Of a stretch of DNA of 50,623 nucleotides, positions 4,974 through 23,842 are shown one piece after another. Each line of letters starts with the position of its first letter. Position 1 is the first letter of the stretch. The stretch is from Sandaracinus sp. (GTDB lineage Bacteria > Myxococcota_A > Polyangia > Polyangiales > Houyiibacteriaceae). The notes under the pieces were generated by a model. That model was not told the DNA's origin, did not search any database, and worked only from the letters and a program-made list of their open reading frames with translations. The stretch is from contig PABA01000130.1 in the NCBI GenBank assembly GCA_002699025.1, positions 1 to 50,623 of the forward strand, in the 5' to 3' direction. Position numbers and translations under genes: made by a program.

Positions 4974-5075
4974 GGACTCCCTCCCTCCGGTCGAGACGCG
5001 CTCCGCCGTCCGCCGTGGCGCTCGAATGCAGCGTCCACGCGCAGGCGGCGGGGGCGCCGGGCGGCCGGGTCCGGC

Positions 5076-5654
5076 TCAGCGCGTCGGCGCGGGGTGCAGG
5101 CGCTCGAGCACGAAGAAGTTCGAGAACACCCGGCCGACGCCGAGGTCCAGGAAGGCCTTGCCGAGGTAGAGGTCCGGGTTCGCCGGGTCGACCTGCACCA
5201 GGAAGTCGCGGATCCGCGCCTCCGGGTTGAGCGCCGCGTTCCGCCCGCTCCCGTAGTTCAGGAGCACCGCGTTCGGGTAGTCGGCGTAGCGCCCACGCGG
5301 CGTCTCGACGTCGTAGAAGCCGTGCCGGGTCTCGGCGCCGCCGCCCTTCTTCGGCACCCAGGGCGCCTTCGGGCCGCCCCGCGGCCGCTCCACGAAGAGG
5401 TTGTAGCCGGCGAGCTTGCCGCCGCCGTCCACGAAGAAGCCCTTGATGAACTTCTGGAAGCCGAGCACCCGCGCGAAGACCGGCGGGTTGTAGCCCTTGA
5501 ACTCCCACCCGGCGAGCGCGTCCCGCGCCGGGGTGGCTCCGACCTCCATCACCCGGTCGAGCTCCCCCTTCGGCATGTGGATGACGTCCTCGAAGCGGAC
5601 GCCCGCGAAGGGGTGCGCGGCGTTGGCGGGGGAGGCGTGAACGCTCTTCTCCAT
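5076..5654 (-). CDS. Conserved-looking unknown protein downstream of ACP
   Basis: A 192-aa protein starting 53 bp after the acyl carrier protein stop on the same strand, so it may be the third gene of a FAAL-ACP operon. No signal peptide or TM is seen. It is rich in aromatic and Gly residues (GWEFKGYNPPVFARVLGFQK, FIKGFFVDGGGKLAGYNLFV). The C-terminus, DLYLGKAFLDLGVGRVFSNFFVLERL, has the shape of small beta-barrel proteins. I cannot name a family. The genomic position makes binding or processing of an acyl chain a possibility, but that is context-based inference only. Confidence 0.6.
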   Translation of the reverse strand: MEKSVHASPANAAHPFAGVRFEDVIHMPKGELDRVMEVGATPARDALAGWEFKGYNPPVFARVLGFQKFIKGFFVDGGGKLAGYNLFVERPRGGPKAPWVPKKGGGAETRHGFYDVETPRGRYADYPNAVLLNYGSGRNAALNPEARIRDFLVQVDPANPDLYLGKAFLDLGVGRVFSNFFVLERLHPAPTR

Positions 5655-5707
5655 GCGCGCGAGTCTACGCAGCCCGCGCTCGCCACGCCACGCGCGAGTC
5701 TGCCGGC

Positions 5708-5947
5708 TCAGCCCTTCTCTTCGAGCTTCGCCTTCACCTTCGCGTAGACCGCGTCGAGGTCCGTGAGCTCCTGAAGCTCCTCCTCGGGGATGGCCAGCTG
5801 AAACTCGCGCTCCACGTCGGCGACGATCTCGATCGCCATCATGCTGTCGATCCCGAGGTCCTTGAACGGCGTCCCGTCCGGCACCTCGTCGATCTCCGCG
5901 ACCTCGGCGATGATCTCGCGCAGCTTTTCCTTCAGCTCGTCCGCCAT
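5708..5947 (-). CDS. Acyl carrier protein
   Basis: A 79-aa acidic four-helix carrier protein. The phosphopantetheine attachment site is visible as LGIDSMMAIE (Ser35), in the usual place at the start of helix II. A ggagga sequence lies 10 nt before the ATG. It follows the fatty acyl-AMP ligase gene by 83 bp on the same strand. The pairing suggests this ACP receives the acyl chain activated by that enzyme rather than serving housekeeping fatty acid synthesis. The divergent ketosynthase and oxoamine synthase genes would then use it as the carrier. ACP identity is firm; the dedicated role is inferred from context. Confidence 0.93.
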   Translation of the reverse strand: MADELKEKLREIIAEVAEIDEVPDGTPFKDLGIDSMMAIEIVADVEREFQLAIPEEELQELTDLDAVYAKVKAKLEEKG

Positions 5948-6030
5948 GGCTTCCGTGTCCTCCCCGGGCTCGACCGCTCGCGCGCCCGGATCGCGCGGAG
6001 GGTACGCGAGGCCGCGCCCCTCCGTCGCCC

Positions 6031-7695
6031 TCATTCGTGCTCGTTCAGCTCTCCGGCCTCGAAGAGCTGCCGCGTCTTCCGACGCTGGGCCTTGCCGCTG
6101 CTCGTCTTCGGCAGCGTCCCCACCGGGCACACGGCCACGTGCGCCGGCGTCAGCCCGAACTCCTGCTGCACCAGCCGTGTGATGTCCTCGCGGATCCGCG
6201 CCGCGTCGGCGCGGTTCCCCTCGGCGGCCAGCACCAGCTCTTCGGCGCCGTCCTTCATCACGCTGAAGGCGAAGACGTTCCCGCGGCGCACGCCCTCCAC
6301 GTCCTGCACCGCCCACTCGATGTCCTGCGGGTAGTGGTTCGCGCCGCGGATGATGATCAGGTCCTTGATGCGCCCGCAGATGAAGAGCTGCTCGCCCGCG
6401 AAGTAGCCGAGGTCCCCGGTCTGGAGCCAGCCATCCCGGTAGCCCTCGGCCGTCGCCGCCTCGTTCTCGAAGTAGCCCTTCGTCACGCTCGGCCCGCGCG
6501 TCACCACCTGGCCCACGCGCCGCTCGGGCAGCGGCTCGCCCGCCTCGTCCACGACGCGCACCTCGTGCTCGGGGAAGCCGCGACCGCAGCCGACGATCTC
6601 GAGCACGGTCTGCGTGTCGTCGTCGGCGGGCTTCGCGACGCCGTCCTTCATCGCCTCGGCGTCGACCCGGTCGACCACCATCTCCTGCCCGCGCGGGTGG
6701 AAGGTGATCGCGAGCGTCGCCTCGGCCATGCCGTAGCTCGGCAGGAAGGCCTTCGGGTCGAAGCCGGCCGGCGCGAACTTGTCGGCAAAGGCCTTCAGCG
6801 TCGCCGCGTGGATCGGCTCGGCGCCGCTCCCGGCCACGCGCAGGCTCGAGAGGTCGAGCCCGGCCATGTGCCGCTCCTTCATGCGCTTCGTCACCAGCTG
6901 GTACGCGAAGTTCGGCGCGTAGGTGATCGTCCCGCGGTGCTTGCTGATCGTCTCGAGCCAGAGCGCCGGGCTCCGCGCGAAGAGCTCGGTCGGCAGGAGC
7001 ACGACCGGGATGTCGTAGATCAGCGTCCCGAGCACGAAGCCGATCAGGCCCATGTCGTGGAAGAGCGGCAGCCAGCTGACGCCCTTGTCCTCGTCGCTCC
7101 GGTTCAGCCCGTGCGGCCCGAGGAAGGCGCCGGCGTTCGCCACCAGGTTGCCGTGCGTGACCATCACGCCCTTCGGCTTGCTCGTGCTGCCGCTCGTGAA
7201 CTGCAGAAAGCAGAGGTCGTCCGAGCCGATGGTCGGCGTCGCGAAGGGCGGGGCGCTCCCCTCGAAGGCCGTCGCCGCGTCCAGGATCGGCGCCTCGATC
7301 CCGTGCTCGCGCACGCGCTCGACGACCTCCCGGTTGCCCTCCATGCAGAAGACGAGCTTCGCGCCCGCCGTCCCGAGGATGTGCGCGAGCACGTCCACGT
7401 AGCCGTCGACGTTCTTGAAGCTCGCCCGCGGGTAGATGGGCACGGGCACGGCGCCGGCGACGGTCGCGGCGAGGAAGGTCAGCACGAACTCGTGCGGCTC
7501 GGGGATGACCAGGCCGATCCGGTCGCCCTTCTTCACGCCCCGCGCCTGCAGGAAGGCCGCCCGGCGGTGCGCCTCGGCTTCGAGCTCGTCGTAGCCGAAG
7601 TAGCGCTCCTGCCGGTCGCGGCCCATGAACGTGAAGCCGCGCCCCTCACCGCGCCGCAGGCGCGCCATCGCCGAGACCAGGGTCAGGTCGCTCAT
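6031..7695 (-). CDS. Fatty acyl-AMP ligase (FAAL)
   Basis: A 554-aa ANL-superfamily enzyme that should activate a fatty acid as acyl-AMP and pass it to an ACP. Motifs: P-loop-like FTSGSTSKPKG (residues 166-176), the FAAL-typical SWLPLFHDMGLIG (207-219), SYGMAEA, GWLQTGDLGYF, GRIKDLIIIRG and a C-terminal PKTSSGKAQRRKTR carrying the adenylation Lys. The block after the HDMGLIG motif fits FAALs better than acyl-CoA ligases, but the FAAL-specific insertion should be checked by alignment. The ATG at 7695 is chosen; sequence before it is Arg/Pro-rich and not protein-like. The ACP gene follows in the same direction, and the ketosynthase operon diverges from it. Confidence 0.9.
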   Translation of the reverse strand: MSDLTLVSAMARLRRGEGRGFTFMGRDRQERYFGYDELEAEAHRRAAFLQARGVKKGDRIGLVIPEPHEFVLTFLAATVAGAVPVPIYPRASFKNVDGYVDVLAHILGTAGAKLVFCMEGNREVVERVREHGIEAPILDAATAFEGSAPPFATPTIGSDDLCFLQFTSGSTSKPKGVMVTHGNLVANAGAFLGPHGLNRSDEDKGVSWLPLFHDMGLIGFVLGTLIYDIPVVLLPTELFARSPALWLETISKHRGTITYAPNFAYQLVTKRMKERHMAGLDLSSLRVAGSGAEPIHAATLKAFADKFAPAGFDPKAFLPSYGMAEATLAITFHPRGQEMVVDRVDAEAMKDGVAKPADDDTQTVLEIVGCGRGFPEHEVRVVDEAGEPLPERRVGQVVTRGPSVTKGYFENEAATAEGYRDGWLQTGDLGYFAGEQLFICGRIKDLIIIRGANHYPQDIEWAVQDVEGVRRGNVFAFSVMKDGAEELVLAAEGNRADAARIREDITRLVQQEFGLTPAHVAVCPVGTLPKTSSGKAQRRKTRQLFEAGELNEHE

Positions 7696-8083
7696 GAGGG
7701 CCCGCTTACGGGAGGAGCCGGGGCCTCGCAAGAGGAAAGGGCGCGCCCGGAAGCGCTCGAAAAAACAGGACGATCGGCCGAAACGGGGTCGCCTCCGGCG
7801 AATGGATTTCCGTCCGGCCGGCCGGTTCTTCGTCGTCCTCCCTGGTGCCCTCGGGCACGGCCCGCGTGAAGTCGAGGCCACGCTCGGCGCCCGGCCGACG
7901 CCCCCGCGCCGGCGAACGCCGCGAATTGCCCAGTGATCCCGGGGTGGAACGCGCGTTGCTGTGACGATCGACGCCCTCGCGCGTCCAAGAGGCGCCGGGA
8001 GCCCGCAAAAGCGGCCGAACGGCCTATTTTTCCGAGATGTTCTTTGCTTGCTCGATTCCGGGCAGGCGGGTAAGGAGGCGACG
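7696..8083. promoter_or_regulatory. Divergent intergenic region, FAAL versus ketosynthase operon
   Basis: This 388-bp stretch separates divergent operons and must hold both promoters. It has short AT-enriched tracts, unusual for the window: cgaaaaaaca near 7753 and ctattttt at 8024-8031. A small hairpin (ggcc gaac ggcc, 8013-8024) followed by tattttt lies about 55 bp before the ketosynthase start and could be a weak attenuator. The right-hand gene has a strong aaggagg Shine-Dalgarno at 8072-8078. I see no convincing -35/-10 pair or operator. Confidence 0.45.
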
Positions 8084-9316
8084 ATGCGACGCGTGTTCGT
8101 GACGGGAGTGGGGGTCATCAGCTCGCTCGGCTTCGGCCGCGAGGCCTTCTGGCGCTCCCTGGTCTCCGGTCGGAGCGGCGCGGCGCCCATCGAGCTCTTC
8201 GACACGAGCGACCTCGACCGCAGCATCGCCTGCGAGGTGAAGGGCTTCCGGCCGCGCGACTTCCTCACCGCCGCCGAGGTGCGGCGCACCGGTCGCTGCT
8301 CGGCCATGTCCATCGCCGCCGCGCGCATGGCCGTGGAGGACGCGGGCATCGGCGTCGAGCACCTCGAGGGCCCGGGCACCTCCGTGATCCTCGGCACGAC
8401 CATGGGCGAGGCGAACGTGCTCGGCGAGCTCGAGCAGGCCTGGCTCCACCAGGGCGAGGACTCGGTCGCGACCGGGCTCATCCCCCGCTACGGCACGACG
8501 CTCCTGCCCATCCACGTGGCCCGCGCCTTCGGCGCCCGCGGCATGGTGCAGACCATGCCCGCCGCCTGCGCCGCCGGAAACTACGCCATCGGCTACGCCG
8601 CCGATCAGGTGCGCGCCGGCCGCGCGGACGTCGCGCTCACGGGCGCCGCCGAGGTCATCGAGCGGCTCCAGTTCGCCGGCTTCTGCCGCCTCGGCGCCGT
8701 CTCCCCGGACGTCTGCCGCCCCTTCGATCAGCAGCGCCAGGGCCTCCTCGTCGGCGAGGGCGCGGCCATCCTCGTGCTCGAGTCCGAGGAGTCGGTCGTG
8801 CGCCGCGGCGCCACCCCGCTCGCCGAGGTCGGCGGCTACGGTCTCGCCTGCGACGCGCACCACATCACGCGCCCGCACCCGGACGGCGAGGGCAGCGCCC
8901 ACGCCATGCGCGAGGCCATCCGCACGAGCGGCCTCGACCCGCGGCAGGTCGACTTCGTCAACGCCCACGGCACGGGCACGGCGGCCAACGACAAGGTCGA
9001 GTCGAAGGTGCTCGCGCAGATCTTCGGCGACCGGCAGCCCATGGTCACGAGCGTGAAGAGCATGCTCGGCCACTGCATGGGCGCGGCGAGCGCCATGGAG
9101 GCCGTGAGCTGCGTGCTCACGCTCCAGGACGACGTGGTCCCGCCGACCATGAACTACGAGCACCCGGATCCGGAGTGCGAGGTGAACCTGGTCGCGAACG
9201 CGGCGCGCAAGCAGCGCGTCGACGTCGTGCTCAACAACTCGCTCGCCTTCGGAGGCTACGACGCGGTCGTGGCCTTCGCGAAGCCGGACGTGCTCCCGAA
9301 CGAGGCCCGCGCCTGA
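8084..9316 (+). CDS. 3-oxoacyl-ACP synthase (FabF-like ketosynthase)
   Basis: A 410-aa condensing enzyme with a complete catalytic set: Cys162 in PAACAAG, His295 in NAHGTGT, and Lys325/His330 in SVKSMLGH. The N-terminus RRVFVTGVGVISSLG is typical of FabF/KS II. The ATG at 8084 has aaggagg 5 bp upstream. It should elongate an ACP-bound acyl chain by decarboxylative Claisen condensation. Its stop codon overlaps the next start (TGATG), so it is made together with a ketosynthase-like partner lacking both His. The divergent FAAL/ACP pair probably supplies its primer. Housekeeping FabF is less likely, because no fabD, fabG or fabH lies nearby. Confidence 0.92.
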   Translation: MRRVFVTGVGVISSLGFGREAFWRSLVSGRSGAAPIELFDTSDLDRSIACEVKGFRPRDFLTAAEVRRTGRCSAMSIAAARMAVEDAGIGVEHLEGPGTSVILGTTMGEANVLGELEQAWLHQGEDSVATGLIPRYGTTLLPIHVARAFGARGMVQTMPAACAAGNYAIGYAADQVRAGRADVALTGAAEVIERLQFAGFCRLGAVSPDVCRPFDQQRQGLLVGEGAAILVLESEESVVRRGATPLAEVGGYGLACDAHHITRPHPDGEGSAHAMREAIRTSGLDPRQVDFVNAHGTGTAANDKVESKVLAQIFGDRQPMVTSVKSMLGHCMGAASAMEAVSCVLTLQDDVVPPTMNYEHPDPECEVNLVANAARKQRVDVVLNNSLAFGGYDAVVAFAKPDVLPNEARA

Positions 9317-10491
9317 TGGAGCTCGCGATCACCGGGCTCGGCGCCGTCTCCCCCTTCGGCGTCGGGCGCGAGGCGTGGTGCGCGGCGCTCGCGGAGGGCG
9401 AGGGCGCGCGGGCGAAGGCTTTCCGCGAGGGGCCCTCGGAGGTGCTCGAGGGCGAGGCCTTCGCCGACGCGCGCACGGCCGAGGTCTGGGGCTGGGACCC
9501 GAAGGCGCACCTCGGCAAGCGCGGCCACCGGAGCTACGACCGGCTGACGAAGTTCCTGATCGCCGCCGCCAAGCACGCGCTGGCGGACGCGGGCGTGAAG
9601 GTGGAGGGCGAGTTCGCCCCGCCCCTCGGCCCGGAGAAGGTGGGCATCTGCAGCGCGACGGCCTACGGCTCGCTGGACGCGATCACCGAGCTGAACCGGG
9701 TCGCCGAGCTCGAGAACCCGCGCTACCTGAACCCGACGCGCTTCCCGAACACGGTCATCAACGCGGCCGCCGGCTACGTGTCGATCTGGGAGGACCTGCG
9801 CGCCCCGAACACGACCGTCGTGGACGGCAACTGCGGCGCGCTGGATGCCGTGCTCACCGCCTCGACGCACCTCGAGCACGGCCGCGGCGAGGCCTTCCTG
9901 GTCGGCGGCGGCGAGGTCGTGAGCGAGCCGCTCTACCTGGCGCTGAAGAAGCTCGGCGTGCTCGCCGACGGGCGCACGGACGGGCAGGGCGTCGAGATGG
10001 GCGAGGGCGCGGCCTACGTGGTCGTCGAGAAGCCCGAGGCGGCGGCGGCGCGCGGCGCGACCGTGCACGCGCGCATCCGCGGCTACGGCACGGCCTTCGA
10101 GCCGCCCGAGTCCGAGGCGCTGCTCGTGCACTGCGGCGCGGACGCCGTCGAGCGGGCGGCGCGCATGGCGCTGAGCGAGGCGGGCGTCGCGCCCGAGGAG
10201 CTCGACGCGGTGGTGACGGCGACGGGCGGCATCGGCGACATCGACGGCGCGGAGATGGCCGGGCTGAAGCGCGTCTTCGGCGAGGGCCTGGCCTACGCGC
10301 CGACCAAGCGGCTCCAGGGCGAGACCTTCGGGGCCGCCGGGGCCTTCGGGCTCGCCTCCGTGCTGGCCTGGATGGGCGGCGCGCCGGTCGCTCCGGTCGG
10401 AGCGGGCGCGGCGCCGGAGAAGGTCGGGGCGGCGCTCGTCAGCACGGTGGGCTTCTACGGCAACGTGAGCTGCGTCGTCGTCACGCGCTGA
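9316..10491 (+). CDS. Ketosynthase-like partner lacking catalytic His residues
   Basis: A 391-aa thiolase-fold protein, translationally coupled to the ketosynthase before it. The fold is clear: LAITGLGAVSPFG at the N-terminus and GNCGALDAVLTAS around Cys173. The expected NAHGTGT is replaced by TATGGIG (about residues 301-307), and the second His is Glu336 in TKRLQGETFG, with Lys331 kept. Loss of both His should prevent malonyl decarboxylation. This resembles chain-length factors (KS-beta), although classical ones replace the Cys, usually by Gln, while this one keeps it. It probably forms a heterodimer with the upstream ketosynthase and sets chain length; that is inference. Confidence 0.83.
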   Translation: MELAITGLGAVSPFGVGREAWCAALAEGEGARAKAFREGPSEVLEGEAFADARTAEVWGWDPKAHLGKRGHRSYDRLTKFLIAAAKHALADAGVKVEGEFAPPLGPEKVGICSATAYGSLDAITELNRVAELENPRYLNPTRFPNTVINAAAGYVSIWEDLRAPNTTVVDGNCGALDAVLTASTHLEHGRGEAFLVGGGEVVSEPLYLALKKLGVLADGRTDGQGVEMGEGAAYVVVEKPEAAAARGATVHARIRGYGTAFEPPESEALLVHCGADAVERAARMALSEAGVAPEELDAVVTATGGIGDIDGAEMAGLKRVFGEGLAYAPTKRLQGETFGAAGAFGLASVLAWMGGAPVAPVGAGAAPEKVGAALVSTVGFYGNVSCVVVTR

Positions 10492-10603
10492 GCGGCGCGG
10501 CGACTCATCCGGCGTGCGGGCTTCGAGCTTCGACCTGAAGCCCGGGAGCCGAGCTGCTACACCGCGCGGCGCGCTCGCCCGGGCGGCGCACGAGAGGACG
10601 ATC

Positions 10604-11836
10604 ATGAGCTGGGTCACGGAGAAGGCGAAGAAGGGCCTCGAGCGCATCCGCGAGGCGCAGGACAAGCAGGTCTACCCCTACTTCAAGCCCTTCGAGTCGG
10701 GCGGGCTGCACACGACGATCGACGGCAAGCCGATCGTGAACTTCAGCTCGAACGACTACCTCGGCCTGACGACGCACCCGAAGGTGAAGGAGGCGTCCAT
10801 CGAGGCCGTGAAGAAGTTCAGCTGCGGGCTGAGCTCGAGCCGCGTGCAGGCGACGACGACGGCCCACGTGGAGCTCGAGGAGCGCCTCGCCGACTGGTTC
10901 GGCTACGAGGCCTGCCTGATCTTCACCACCGGCTACCAGGCCATGGTCGGCACGATCATGTCGCTCGCGGACAAGGACACGACCCTCGTCCTCGACAACC
11001 TCGCCCACGCCTGCATCCTCGACGGCACCTTCCTCGCGGCGGGCGTGCCCCGGAGCGGCAGCGAGATCCGCTTCTTCAACCACAACAGCGCCCGCTCCCT
11101 CCGCCGCGCGCTCTCGAAGCGCGAGCGAAAGAACGCGCTCGTCGCCATCGAGGGCATCTACAGCCTCGACGGCGACGAGGCGAACATCCTCGAGCTCCTC
11201 GACGCGGCCGAGGAGGACCCGAACGCCGTGATGCTCGTCGATGACGCGCACGGCACGGGCACGCTCGGCATGCACGGCAAGGGCATCCACGAGAAGTACG
11301 ACATCGCCTCGCGCGTGCCGATCCTCGTGAGCACCTTCTCGAAGACCTTCGGCGGCATCGGCGGCCTGCTCCTCGGCTCGAAGGACGTCGTCGAGCACGT
11401 GAAGCACCAGGCGCGCTCCTTCCTCTTCAGCGCAAGCCTGCCCGTGCCGGTGGTGGCGGCGGCGGCGACGATCCTGGACATGCTCGAGGAGAGCGGGCCG
11501 CAGCTCGTGGCCGAGCTCCACGAGAAGGCCGCCTACATGCGCAAGAGCCTGACGGAGATCGGCTTCGATCTCGGCAAGAGCGACACGCACATCATGCCCG
11601 TGATGTGCCGTGAGGAGCGCAAGGCGCTCTTCACGCACGTGGCCATGCTCGAGAGCGGCGTGATGATGGTGCCGATCACCTACCCGGGCGTGCAGAAGGG
11701 CGAGGAGCGGCTGCGCCTGAACGTGACCCGCGGGCACACGCGCGAGGACATGGACCAGGCGCTCGACCTCCTGAAGATCTACGGCGAGGCGTTCTTCATC
11801 CTGAGCGGCGAAGAGCTCGCGCCCATGGAGAGCTGA
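10604..11836 (+). CDS. Alpha-oxoamine synthase, serine palmitoyltransferase-like
   Basis: A 410-aa PLP enzyme of the family that includes serine palmitoyltransferase, 8-amino-7-oxononanoate synthase and 2-amino-3-ketobutyrate CoA ligase. Visible are NFSSNDYLGL, the cofactor-region DDAHGTG (213-219), and the PLP Lys247 in STFSKTFGG. The C-terminal GVQKGEERLRLNVTRGHTREDMDQA block is typical. The reaction would be decarboxylative condensation of an amino acid with an acyl thioester. Biotin synthesis is unlikely: no other bio gene is near, while an ACP, FAAL and ketosynthases are. An ACP-dependent sphingoid-base or aminoketone product is the best reading. The ATG at 10604 is preceded by gagagga. 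Confidence 0.85.
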   Translation: MSWVTEKAKKGLERIREAQDKQVYPYFKPFESGGLHTTIDGKPIVNFSSNDYLGLTTHPKVKEASIEAVKKFSCGLSSSRVQATTTAHVELEERLADWFGYEACLIFTTGYQAMVGTIMSLADKDTTLVLDNLAHACILDGTFLAAGVPRSGSEIRFFNHNSARSLRRALSKRERKNALVAIEGIYSLDGDEANILELLDAAEEDPNAVMLVDDAHGTGTLGMHGKGIHEKYDIASRVPILVSTFSKTFGGIGGLLLGSKDVVEHVKHQARSFLFSASLPVPVVAAAATILDMLEESGPQLVAELHEKAAYMRKSLTEIGFDLGKSDTHIMPVMCREERKALFTHVAMLESGVMMVPITYPGVQKGEERLRLNVTRGHTREDMDQALDLLKIYGEAFFILSGEELAPMES

Positions 11837-11845
11837 GCTCCGAGC

Positions 11846-12340
11846 ATGGCGCGGCGGCGCGCGCGGATCGGGCTGGTCTCGGACACGCACGGGCTCGTGC
11901 GGCCGGAGGTGCTGGCGGCGCTCGAGGGCTGCGAGCGGATCGTGCACGCCGGCGACGTGGGCGGGCCGCACGTGCTCGAGGCGCTGGAGGCGGTGGCGCC
12001 GGTGACGGCCGTGCGCGGGAACGTCGACGAGCCGGCGGCGATCCGGCGCGGGCGGCGGAAGCTCGAGCCCGAGTGGGCGGCGGCGTTGCCGGAGACGGCG
12101 ACGCTCGCGGTGCGGGGCAAGCGCCTCTTCGTGCTGCACGTGCTCGAGGCGCTCGCGCCGGAGGTCGAGGCGGACGTGGTCATCAGCGGGCACTCGCACC
12201 GGCCGCGGGTCGAGCGGCGGGGTGGGGTGCTCTACGTCAACCCGGGGAGCGTGGGGCCCCGGCGCTTCTCGCTGCCGGTGGCGATGGCGATCCTGAAGGT
12301 CGGCGCGCGCGTGGACGTCGAGCCGATCGTGTTCGGATGA
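11846..12340 (+). CDS. YfcE/MJ0936-type metallophosphoesterase
   Basis: A 164-aa calcineurin-like phosphodiesterase with all metal-binding motifs in order: SDTHG (residues 12-16), HAGDVGG, VRGNVDE, LHVL and SGHSHRP, then NPGSVGPRR. Length and motif order match the small single-domain YfcE family. It starts 9 bp after the oxoamine synthase stop and may be cotranscribed, but it is a common housekeeping type and need not belong to that pathway. The natural substrate is unknown. A 16-bp tandem array begins within its stop codon. Confidence 0.9.
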   Translation: MARRRARIGLVSDTHGLVRPEVLAALEGCERIVHAGDVGGPHVLEALEAVAPVTAVRGNVDEPAAIRRGRRKLEPEWAAALPETATLAVRGKRLFVLHVLEALAPEVEADVVISGHSHRPRVERRGGVLYVNPGSVGPRRFSLPVAMAILKVGARVDVEPIVFG

Positions 12341-12458
12341 GGCCGTGCTCGGGTGAGCGCGCGCGCGGCTGAGGCCGTGCTCGGGTGAGGGCGCCACGGC
12401 TGAGGGTACGCGCGGTTGAGGACGCGCGCGGCTGAGGGCGCGTTCGGGTGAGGACGCT
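12339..12458. repeat. 16-bp tandem array overlapping a stop codon
   Basis: Seven consecutive degenerate units of the type gaggccgtgctcgggt / gaggacgcgcgcggct run from 12339 to 12449 (one unit is 15 bp), plus a partial eighth. The first unit begins at the last two bases of the phosphoesterase TGA. Each unit starts with GAG and ends in GGGT, GGCT or GGTT. It lies between convergent genes. Confidence 0.8.
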
Positions 12459-13046: not shown

Positions 13047-13712
13047 TCACCAGGGCAGCTCTTCACCGTTCGCGTGCCAGAAGACGCCCGTGTGGTCCAT
13101 GTCGAGGTCCGCGTAGCGGTCGAGGAGCATGGCCGCGGCCTCGTCCGGGTCCACGTTCCCGTTCCCGCCCGTCATGTCCGTGCGAACGTAGCCGGGGTGG
13201 AAGAGGCCGACGGCGATGCGGCGCGGGGCGAGGTCGCGGGCGAGGGAGACGCCAGCGGCGTTCACGGCCGTCTTGCTCATGCGGTAGCCGTAGGAGCCGC
13301 CGGAGCCGTTGTCGGCGATGGAGCCCATGCGGCTCGTGATGATGGCGACCTTCGCGCCGTCCTCGAGGGCATCCCGGAGCGCGGCGACGACGCGGAGCGG
13401 GCCGAGGGCGTTGACCTCGAGCTGCTTCCGGATGGAGTCGAAGTCGAGGTGCGCGAGGGTGTTCCGCTCGAGGACGCCCGCGTTCACGATCAGCCCGTCG
13501 AGCTCGCGCCCTTTCATCTTCGCGGCGAAGGCCGCGACGGCCTCGTCCGAGGTCACGTCGACGCCCTCGTGGACCTCGGCCCCGGTCGCGTTCAGGCCCT
13601 CGCTGCTCTTCCGGCAGGTGGCGATGACCTTCTGGTCTTCCTTGGCGTGGAGCTGCTTGGCGAGCTCGAGGCCGATGCCCCGGTTCGCGCCGACGATGAC
13701 GTGGGTGCTCAT
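13047..13712 (-). CDS. Short-chain dehydrogenase/reductase
   Basis: A 221-aa SDR starting at the ATG at 13712. The nucleotide-binding motif is VGANRGIGLEL near the N-terminus, NAGV marks the middle, and the catalytic set is Ser in ITSRMGS plus YRMSK (YxxxK). Length and pattern fit the carbonyl-reductase/sniffer group, which includes the myxobacterial C-factor CsgA; orthology to CsgA cannot be claimed from motifs. A ketosphinganine reductase role for the nearby oxoamine synthase is conceivable, but the gene lies on the opposite strand with two genes and an array between. Confidence 0.88.
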   Translation of the reverse strand: MSTHVIVGANRGIGLELAKQLHAKEDQKVIATCRKSSEGLNATGAEVHEGVDVTSDEAVAAFAAKMKGRELDGLIVNAGVLERNTLAHLDFDSIRKQLEVNALGPLRVVAALRDALEDGAKVAIITSRMGSIADNGSGGSYGYRMSKTAVNAAGVSLARDLAPRRIAVGLFHPGYVRTDMTGGNGNVDPDEAAAMLLDRYADLDMDHTGVFWHANGEELPW

Positions 13713-13819
13713 GGCCCCGGTTGTAGGGAAGCGGCCCGACGATGACAACGGGGTCGCCTGGCGCGGGGGTGGGGACGAGGTTTGCGGGGGGCGATGGGGC
13801 GCGCCCTCTGGCAGTCCCC

Positions 13820-21962: not shown

Positions 21963-22727
21963 ATGAGCGACGCCCCCAAGGCCCCCGTCGGCCCCCGCCA
22001 GAAGCTCCCCGAGATCGACGTCTTCGAGCACGGCGCCACGCGCGGTGACGTGAAGCAGTCGATGGACGCGCGGCTCTTCATGCAGCTGCTCGTCTTCACG
22101 AGCCCGGTCGGTGAGGACCCGCAGCGCTACGTCGACGCGCTGGTGAAGGGCCTCGAGGAGGCCGGGGCGGGCGCCGTCGTCTATGCGGACGCGAACGACC
22201 CGCGGGGCATCGGCCTGCTCACCTGGAGCCAGGACCCGGAGCACTTCGTCACCACCGTGCGCCCGCTCTTCGCGCGCGAGCTCCTCCGCGACCTGACGCT
22301 CCGGCCCGAGATGACCATGCTCGGCCGCACCTACTCGGTGGGCTACGAGCAGAACCTCGCCCACTGGATCCTCGAGCGGCCCATCGAGAACGTCACGAAC
22401 GGCGAGCTCGGCTGGCACGTCTGGTATCCGCTCCGCCGCATCGGCGCCTTCGAGCGCCTCGACGCGCAGGAGCAGCGGGCGATCCTCGGCGAGCACGCGC
22501 TCCTCGGTCGCGCCTACGGCGCCCAGGGGCTGGCCCACGACGTGCGCCTCGCCTGCCACGGCCTGGACGCAAACGACAACGAGTTCGTGATCGGCCTGCT
22601 CGGGGCGAAGCTCCACCCGCTCAGCCACGTCGTGCAGACCATGCGCAAGACGAAGCAGACCTCCGAGTACATCTCGCAGATGGGGCCCTTCTTCGTGGGC
22701 CGCGTCGTGCACGCGTCGAAGGGCTGA
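21963..22727 (+). CDS. Chlorite dismutase family heme protein
   Basis: A 254-aa protein of the chlorite dismutase/HemQ family. The C-terminal signature is visible: [20 protein letters not shown] followed by [12 protein letters not shown]. The ferredoxin-like repeats fit [20 protein letters not shown] and the segment around [11 protein letters not shown]. HemQ members are coproheme decarboxylases in heme synthesis; others remove chlorite or have peroxidase activity. Without alignment of the distal Arg and other residues I cannot choose. It is followed after 8 bp by chorismate synthase, so they may share a transcript. The role in this genome is uncertain. Confidence 0.85.
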
Positions 22728-22735
22728 GCGCGCCC

Positions 22736-23842
22736 ATGGCCGGGAGCACCTTCGGCGTCGCGCTCCGCGTGACCACGGCCGGCGAGAGCCACGGGCCCGG
22801 CAACGTCGTGATCGTCGACGGCTGCCCGCCCGGCATCGCGCTGAGCGTGGAGGACCTGCAGGTCGACCTCGACCGGCGGCGGCCCGGCCAGTCGAAGGTG
22901 GTGACGCAGCGCAAGGAGCCGGACCGGCCGGAGATCCTCTCCGGGGTCTTCGAGGGGCGGACGACGGGGACGCCGATCGCGATCCTCGTGCGCAACGTGG
23001 ACCAAAAGAGCCGCGACTACTCGGAGATCGCGCGGCTCTACCGGCCCGGCCACGCGGACTATACCTTCGACGCGAAGTACGGGCGGCGCGACTACCGGGG
23101 CGGCGGGCGCTCGAGCGCGCGGGAGACCGTGGCGCGGGTCGCGGCGGGCGTCGTGGCCAAGAAGATCCTCGCGGAGGCCTTCGGCGGCGAGGTGCTCGGC
23201 TACGTGGTGCAGGTGGGCGACGTCGTGGCCGAGGTGCCCGAGGGGGTGACGCTGGACGCCGTCGAGCGGCTGCCGGACGGCGAGCCGAACATCGTGCGCT
23301 GCCCGGACGTGGCGGCGGCGGCGAAGATGGTCGAGCTGATCCAGCGCATGCGGAAGCAGCAGGACTCGATCGGCGGCGTGGCGGAGATCGTCGCCCGGGG
23401 CGTGCCGGCGGGGCTCGGCGAGCCGGTCTTCGACAAGCTGAAGGCGGACCTGGCGAAGGCGCTCTTCAGCCTGCCGGCGGTGATGGGCGTGGAGTACGGC
23501 GCGGGCTTCCGCGTGGCGACGGCGCGCGGGAGCGAGAACAACGACGTCTTCGTCGGCGGCGAGGGCGGCGTGCGCACGGAGACGAACCGGCACGGGGGCA
23601 TGCTCGGGGGCATCAGCACCGGGATGCCGATCGTGCTGCGCGCGGCCGTGAAGCCGACCTCGAGCCTGCCGCAGGAGCAACGGACGGTGACGACCGAGGG
23701 GGAGGCGGCGACGATCCGCACGAAGGGGCGCCACGACCCCTGCCTCTTGCCGCGCTTCGTGCCGATGGCGGAGGCGATGGTCGCGCTGACGATCGCGGAC
23801 CACTGGCTGCGCCAGCAGGCGGTGGGCGCGGGACTCGGCTGA
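22736..23842 (+). CDS. aroC: Chorismate synthase
   Basis: A 368-aa enzyme converting 5-enolpyruvylshikimate-3-phosphate to chorismate, the last step of the shikimate pathway, using reduced FMN. Signature stretches are present: [21 protein letters not shown] near the start, [25 protein letters not shown] and [13 protein letters not shown]. The C-terminal [19 protein letters not shown] also fits. Length is usual for the family. It starts 8 bp after the chlorite-dismutase-family gene. No other aro gene is in the window. Confidence 0.97.

Follow-up and report, generated by a model that had tools for sequence, protein, structure and literature searches.

The closest described relatives of the locus analysed here come from bacterial sphingolipid synthesis and from type II polyketide synthesis. 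According to the available passages of PMC9386255, the rhodobacterial spt-acpR-aasR(-cerR, cerS) set of Caulobacter and Escherichia coli BL21 combines an alpha-oxoamine synthase (AOS), serine palmitoyltransferase (SPT), with a dedicated acyl carrier protein (ACP) and an acyl-ACP synthetase, both of which the enzyme requires. In Pseudomonas fluorescens MYb115, the polyketide synthase (PKS) SgaA and the AOS SgaB make sphinganines, SgaB condensing L-serine with long-chain acyl thioesters, and the accessible text describes the pair as secondary metabolism (PMC12134224). In type II systems, represented by ishigamide (6kxd), actinorhodin (1tqy) and PDB entry 9s5h, a complete ketosynthase (KS) adjoins a His-less partner, the chain length factor. 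Here, we analyse a locus of Sandaracinus sp. (order Polyangiales) in which elements of these systems meet. The window, the whole stretch of DNA studied (50,623 nucleotides, 73.4% G+C), is one entire contig (PABA01000130.1; C141 of genome G000) of a 9.24 Mb genome that is 95.9% complete, and the locus consists of an ACP, a fatty acyl-AMP ligase (FAAL), two ketosynthases (KS-alpha and KS-beta) and a pyridoxal phosphate (PLP)-dependent AOS.

We consider it probable that this locus encodes a type II synthase of sphingoid bases (long-chain alpha-aminoketones) that depends on an ACP and does the job of SPT in the order. The AOS product is probably 3-ketosphinganine-like, and L-serine is the most likely amino acid. 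This proposal builds on gene content, catalytic residues, conservation, co-occurrence, SPT exclusion and the presence of a CerS homologue, and from these we infer the reactions, the amino acid, the chain length, the ketosynthase heterodimer and the final lipid. An aminoketone or sphingoid-base locus with a KS pair ahead of the AOS had already been proposed in a sequence-only reading of the window; this core idea is strengthened by the joint conservation of both operons, the joint occurrence of KS-beta and AOS, the replacement of SPT, the presence of CerS and a separate bioF, and neither of the two outcomes which that reading had named as refuting it was observed; serine is kept as the likely amino acid. 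Overall, that interpretation is partly supported and its biology largely right.

Compared with the known systems, the locus resembles the rhodobacterial set in joining an AOS to a dedicated ACP and an acyl-ACP synthetase, with a CerS homologue in the same genome, and its products are 37% (FAAL, to the ligase AasR), 33% (AOS) and 26% (ACP) identical to those of the E. coli BL21 spt set. Unlike the window locus, however, the BL21 cluster, as read from its record, contains no ketosynthases, and the window AOS belongs to another clade than rhodobacterial SPT. Like SgaAB, it would build a chain in polyketide fashion and pass it to an AOS that makes sphinganine-type bases, but SgaA is one iterative type I PKS, whereas no iterative multidomain type I PKS stands beside the window AOS, which is accompanied by discrete type II KS-alpha, KS-beta and ACP plus the FAAL, in a locus kept through most of the order. 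In contrast to the type II KS and chain length factor systems, the locus has no ketoreductase or dehydratase and is coupled to an AOS. The SPT of Polyangiales and Bacteroidota (NF047600) has the same family fold, PLP residues and TFSK motif and occurs in genomes that also carry CerS, but it is about 36% identical to the window AOS and falls in a different clade. The new element is the discrete KS-alpha/KS-beta pair before an AOS. Among the titles, abstracts and text passages covered, with most subscription papers outside, no KS pair with an AOS was found for sphingolipids, and literature on Sandaracinus and sphingolipids yielded no lipid data.

The genes are arranged as two divergent units on either side of a common gap (7696-8083). 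The minus-strand unit comprises the ACP (5708-5947; 79 aa; PP-binding PF00550, 2e-15), with its phosphopantetheine serine in LGIDS, and the FAAL (6031-7695; AMP-binding PF00501, 6.6e-72), the best NCBIfam model of which is 'fatty acyl-AMP ligase' PRK09192 (523.8 bits, below the cut-off of 600). The plus-strand unit comprises KS-alpha (8084-9316; FabF-type, fabF 412 bits), KS-beta (9316-10491; ketoacyl-synt, 1e-19), the start of which overlaps the KS-alpha stop by 1 base (TGATG at 9314-9318), and the AOS (10604-11836; Aminotran_1_2 PF00155, 1.1e-45). Family searches thus agree with all gene names given in the earlier reading. No sigma-70-like promoter was found in window positions 5000-12400. 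The phosphopantetheine serine is present in 56 of 56 aligned ACPs, and by family and motif the acyl-AMP ligase and the serine-bearing carrier protein look like a loading pair.

The two ketosynthases differ sharply at their catalytic positions. KS-alpha has a complete Cys-His-His triad (Cys162/His295/His330), kept in 36 of 36 aligned sequences, whereas KS-beta has histidine at neither catalytic position in any of 44, the second being Glu in 43 and Asp in 1. A complete triad beside a triad-less partner is the hallmark of type II KS and chain length factor pairs; relative to these, KS-beta proteins of the window type are distinguished by the Glu at the second His position and by a Cys present in 31 of the 44 sequences and replaced in 13. 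The window KS-beta itself retains the Cys and has Gly and Glu at the two expected His positions. Its predicted model adopts the KS fold (mean predicted local distance difference test score 91.4) and superimposes on FabF chains with Z 52.1 and a root mean square deviation of 2.2 over 376 aligned residues. The top PDB matches of KS-alpha and KS-beta are two chains of one entry, 9s5h_B (8.3e-121) and 9s5h_C (2.4e-36), and the third match of the ACP is 9s5i_E, which suggests a KS-alpha/KS-beta/ACP complex. A KS-alpha/KS-beta heterodimer with a shared acyl pocket would be in keeping, indirectly, with these same matches; for 9s5h no publication was located, and it is absent among the structure matches listed.

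The arrangement is beyond chance, as it recurs in relatives and its genes co-occur across the 183 genomes of the order that were searched. Among 40 stretches around AOS orthologs from 40 relatives, the divergent arrangement of ACP/FAAL and KS-alpha/KS-beta/AOS recurs, so that both operons, which the sequence-only reading had treated as one locus, are indeed conserved together. In the 31 regions that extend 7 kb or more upstream of the AOS, the ACP is nearby in 25, KS-beta in 17, KS-alpha in 15, the FAAL in 8, a YbgC-like thioesterase in 6 and a 192-aa protein next to the ACP of the window in none; the FAAL, although present in the window as that reading had it, is therefore the least constant of the five genes. 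In the order, the AOS was matched in 109 of 183 genomes, of which 103 were kept as clade I after dropping G288, G293, G296, G297, G302 and G322 (only 41-50% identity); the matches of G045, G038 and G051 (37%) are SPT-type and lie outside this count. Ortholog identity across the order is 63-85% outside the own genome, and the closest orthologs in named records come from metagenome-assembled Myxococcales, Polyangiaceae and Sandaracinaceae. KS-beta occurs in 88 genomes, 86 of which also carry the clade I AOS; the other two are G047, where the AOS is cut by a contig end beside KS-beta, and G366, a weak match. Conversely, 17 of the 103 AOS genomes lack KS-beta (16 of genus g2, and G320). Both genes are on the same contig in 70 of the 86 joint genomes (within 2.5 kb in 69) and on different contigs in 16, some of which may be assembly breaks; in G055 and G268, however, they lie deep inside different long contigs, both are kept, and KS-alpha, KS-beta, two ACPs and a thioesterase-like gene stand together without the AOS. 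The KS-alpha/KS-beta/AOS set was scanned in the phylum Myxococcota and, with a close-relative query, in one named genome collection. In a phylum sample of 235 genomes (AOS E <=1e-80, KS-beta E <=1e-60), the AOS is found in 27 and KS-beta in 21, all within the 27 (Fisher 6e-25).

The AOS and SPT largely exclude each other. Counted with the Bacteroidota-type model (NF047600, E <=1e-110), SPT is present in 63 of the 183 order genomes, and its overlap with the clade I AOS is 1 genome (G350), versus 35.5 expected; 18 genomes have neither. The G350 match is the weakest of the 63 and lies within a divergent 1,470-aa fusion protein (L203:5401-9810, minus strand). This fusion carries FAAL, ACP, luciferase-like monooxygenase and SPT-like AOS, in that order, in one chain. 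No match to the KS pair, ACP or FAAL was found near SPT in the six SPT loci probed (L079, L080, L146, L148, L149 and L150).

Genes for the presumed next step towards ceramide accompany both enzymes. A protein of about 376 aa adjoins SPT in L146 and L148 (followed by an epimerase in L148), lies about 7 kb away in L149 and is on another contig for L150 (G205). We identify it as CerS because it shares 40% identity with E. coli YghO over 365 residues. In the sphingolipid gene set given in the accessible part of PMC9386255, YghO is listed with CC_1154 as the N-acyltransferase; CC_1154 is named CerS in the passages available of PMC11324152. Homologues of CerS are encoded in 169 of the 183 order genomes, including 95 of 103 with the AOS and 61 of 62 with SPT (G350 left out), and the homologue of the own genome (C59:50647-51771) has 35% identity with YghO across 376 aligned residues. 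Within the phylum sample, 26 of 27 AOS genomes and 22 of 47 SPT genomes have CerS. Of 27 CerS loci in AOS genomes, 10 have a CerR (48-57% identity) no more than 2 kb from CerS; none was found near CerS in the own genome. On a quick tree of 78 CerS proteins chosen from the 169 genomes (44 from AOS genomes, 31 from SPT genomes, 2 from genomes with neither and 1 from E. coli), AOS lineages both flank SPT lineages and nest among them, as expected if one enzyme takes the place of the other.

The AOS itself retains the residues of a PLP enzyme of this family, namely Lys247, His135, Asp213, His216 and Arg371 in 66 of 66 aligned sequences (the PLP lysine, the stacking histidine, the Asp/His pair and the carboxylate arginine). 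Its top PDB matches are SPTs (8guh and 3a2b). In a quick tree of 50 sequences, it forms, together with a set of 41-46% identity (AOS-II; L190-L194, in G263 and some order genomes), a long-branched clade of its own with support 100. AOS-I (clade I), AOS-II and SPTs have in common the motif TFSK, the counterpart of which is TLGK in BioF (8-amino-7-oxononanoate synthase) and 2-amino-3-ketobutyrate CoA ligase (KBL), and the loss of one residue behind an SR/AR pair. The AOS is neither BioF nor KBL, since the genome encodes both separately: it scores 319.3 against TIGR00858, below the cut-off of 426.45 that another protein of the genome passes with 430.7, and what we take to be KBL, named from its sequence, adjoins a gene that we likewise presume to encode a threonine-dehydrogenase-like protein. 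Biotin synthesis, which the earlier reading had named as a role that would refute its proposal, is thereby assigned elsewhere. In L193, the neighbours in line with the AOS-II gene are an epimerase, reductases, an ACP and a KS; in L194, they are reductases, a KS and genes resembling those for HMG-CoA synthase and FabA. Because of these neighbours, the whole AOS-I/II clade seems tied to ACP-based chain building. Both settings look like an uncharacterised polyketide-type cluster with several short-chain dehydrogenases/reductases (SDRs).

Several observations weigh against a sphingoid-base synthase replacing SPT. The AOS clade stands apart from SPTs as well as from BioF and KBL, and under the rule given in the available text of PMC11334938, homologues that do not fall within the SPT clade count as divergent. 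The AOS falls far short of the cut-offs of three SPT models (305 versus 640, 271.7 versus 500 and 201.7 versus 670), although this shortfall is a weak test, as the cut-off of 640 is reached in none of the 183 order genomes. Its C-terminal loop ITYP is nearer to that of KBL (SYP/SFP) than to that of SPT, which makes glycine or alanine a possible amino acid. Nearby partners are often missing: 23 of the 31 regions lack the FAAL and 14 lack KS-beta, 11 of the latter belonging to genus g2. On the CerS tree, the SPT label needs 3 changes, and SPT versus AOS alone at least 2; the exclusion thus reflects few exchanges and is phylogenetically clumped, so that the Fisher values overstate the case and p-values should not be taken at face value. 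CerS is also found in 46 of the 161 phylum genomes with neither enzyme, which weakens it as a specific sphingolipid marker, although these genomes may have other SPT types. Finally, the best CerR match of the own genome is 38% identical to the CerR of L148, among 18 epimerase matches in a large family, and no linked sphingolipid genes were recognised around the candidates in C162 and C197. In our judgement, the pattern of SPT replacement, though indirect, outweighs as evidence the placement of the AOS outside the SPT clade.

The same observations can be read in other ways. It appears rather unlikely that the AOS uses glycine, alanine or cysteate instead of serine to make bases of the 1-deoxy or sulfono type, which would be relatives of sphingolipids rather than sphingolipids proper. 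Its separate clade, the likeness of its loop ITYPGVQKG to FSYPVVPKG of KBL and the presence of the cysteate acyltransferase 28eh among the nearest solved structures would suit such an activity, and the passages available of PMC11334938 describe natural 1-deoxyceramides and sulfono-1-deoxyceramides; yet the nearest solved structures are serine enzymes, and SPT has been replaced while CerS was kept. The position at which Thr limits 5-aminolevulinate synthase to glycine is Ser79 in the AOS (66 of 66) and does not decide the matter.

The role of the KS pair bears on a further possibility, namely that the AOS and ACP alone substitute for SPT and the pair is a neighbouring chain extender with a product also used elsewhere. 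The AOS genomes without KS-beta, and the unlinking of KS-beta and AOS possible in family f5, point in this direction, but we find it unlikely, as KS-beta almost never occurs without the AOS (86 of 88 genomes, or 87 with G047), even in the unlinked cases. Least plausible is a secondary-metabolite or signalling locus that has no link to membrane lipids and makes an aminoketone of the alpha-hydroxyketone or pyrrole type. The CAI-1 autoinducer synthase belongs to the AOS family, and the polyketide-cluster style of the AOS-II neighbourhoods (KS and reductases, with an ACP in L193 and a FabA-like gene in L194) would fit; conversely, a slowly evolving ortholog retained in 103 of 183 order genomes speaks against such a role, which would leave the exclusion of SPT unexplained. 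Retention extends to genus g2 (genomes of about 3-4 Mb), where 11 of 11 regions have kept just the AOS and, next to it, the ACP.

For a sphingoid-base synthase, the following scheme can be envisioned. The FAAL would activate a free fatty acid as acyl-AMP and load it on the dedicated ACP; where no FAAL is nearby, ordinary fatty acid synthesis would supply the acyl group. At least one malonyl unit would then be added by the KS-alpha/KS-beta heterodimer, in which KS-beta, catalytically dead, would shape the chain-length pocket. Because the block encodes no reductase, the extended chain would either be reduced by the housekeeping type II fatty acid synthase (FAS II) enzymes or keep a beta-keto group; reduction is likelier, as the product must suit CerS. 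The AOS would free the chain from the ACP by decarboxylative condensation with the amino acid, giving a 3-keto sphingoid base, and CerS and a CerR-like reductase, encoded elsewhere, would convert it into a ceramide-like lipid. The FAAL-to-ACP and ACP-to-AOS steps are modelled on the rhodobacterial set, with its SPT that needs a dedicated ACP and synthetase, and the KS step on PKS-fed SgaB. More tentatively, it is quite possible that most of the order builds a sphingolipid-like backbone by such a type II polyketide-style machine, with KS-alpha/KS-beta and a private ACP, a new AOS clade in place of SPT and a chain length factor setting the length of a core membrane lipid instead of a natural product. 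If so, bacterial sphingolipid capacity is under-counted where surveys rely on SPT, polyketide logic makes a core membrane lipid, and the KS-alpha/KS-beta pair offers a clean genetic handle on the function of a His-less KS-beta. The exchange of SPT and AOS among related lineages is a natural experiment, open to lipid analysis of existing cultures.

Genes around the block were weighed as further parts of it. The 192-aa protein (5076-5654, minus strand), which the sequence-only reading had put forward as a component, matches no Pfam or NCBIfam family and is absent from all 43 compared regions; its homologues, found in 22 of 54 genomes searched (the own included), are either separated from the block, as in G014 (some 7 kb beyond the ACP) and G007 (some 22 kb away from the AOS), or encoded on a different contig, and we drop it. 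Downstream, a metallophosphatase (11846-12340) has no counterpart in the fetched regions of relatives, and an SDR (13047-13748) has a close counterpart in just a few of them; neither is retained as part of the locus. A YbgC-type 4HBT thioesterase, absent in the window, follows directly after the ACP in several relatives (L040:6383-6715, L048:3146-3571, and also L042, L044, L045, L052 and L060). In G055, an acyl-ACP desaturase-like protein (PF03405; L151:11856-12767, plus strand) lies between two ACPs beside KS-alpha/KS-beta and may desaturate the chain. Elsewhere in the window, a gene for a 254-aa protein is followed by one that we take to be chorismate-synthase-like (together 21963-23839), and two similar genes directly adjoin the AOS in L075. 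Around positions 1600-1850, near-repeats of ARSN-ARGRTREVER in translation suggest a short tandem DNA repeat.

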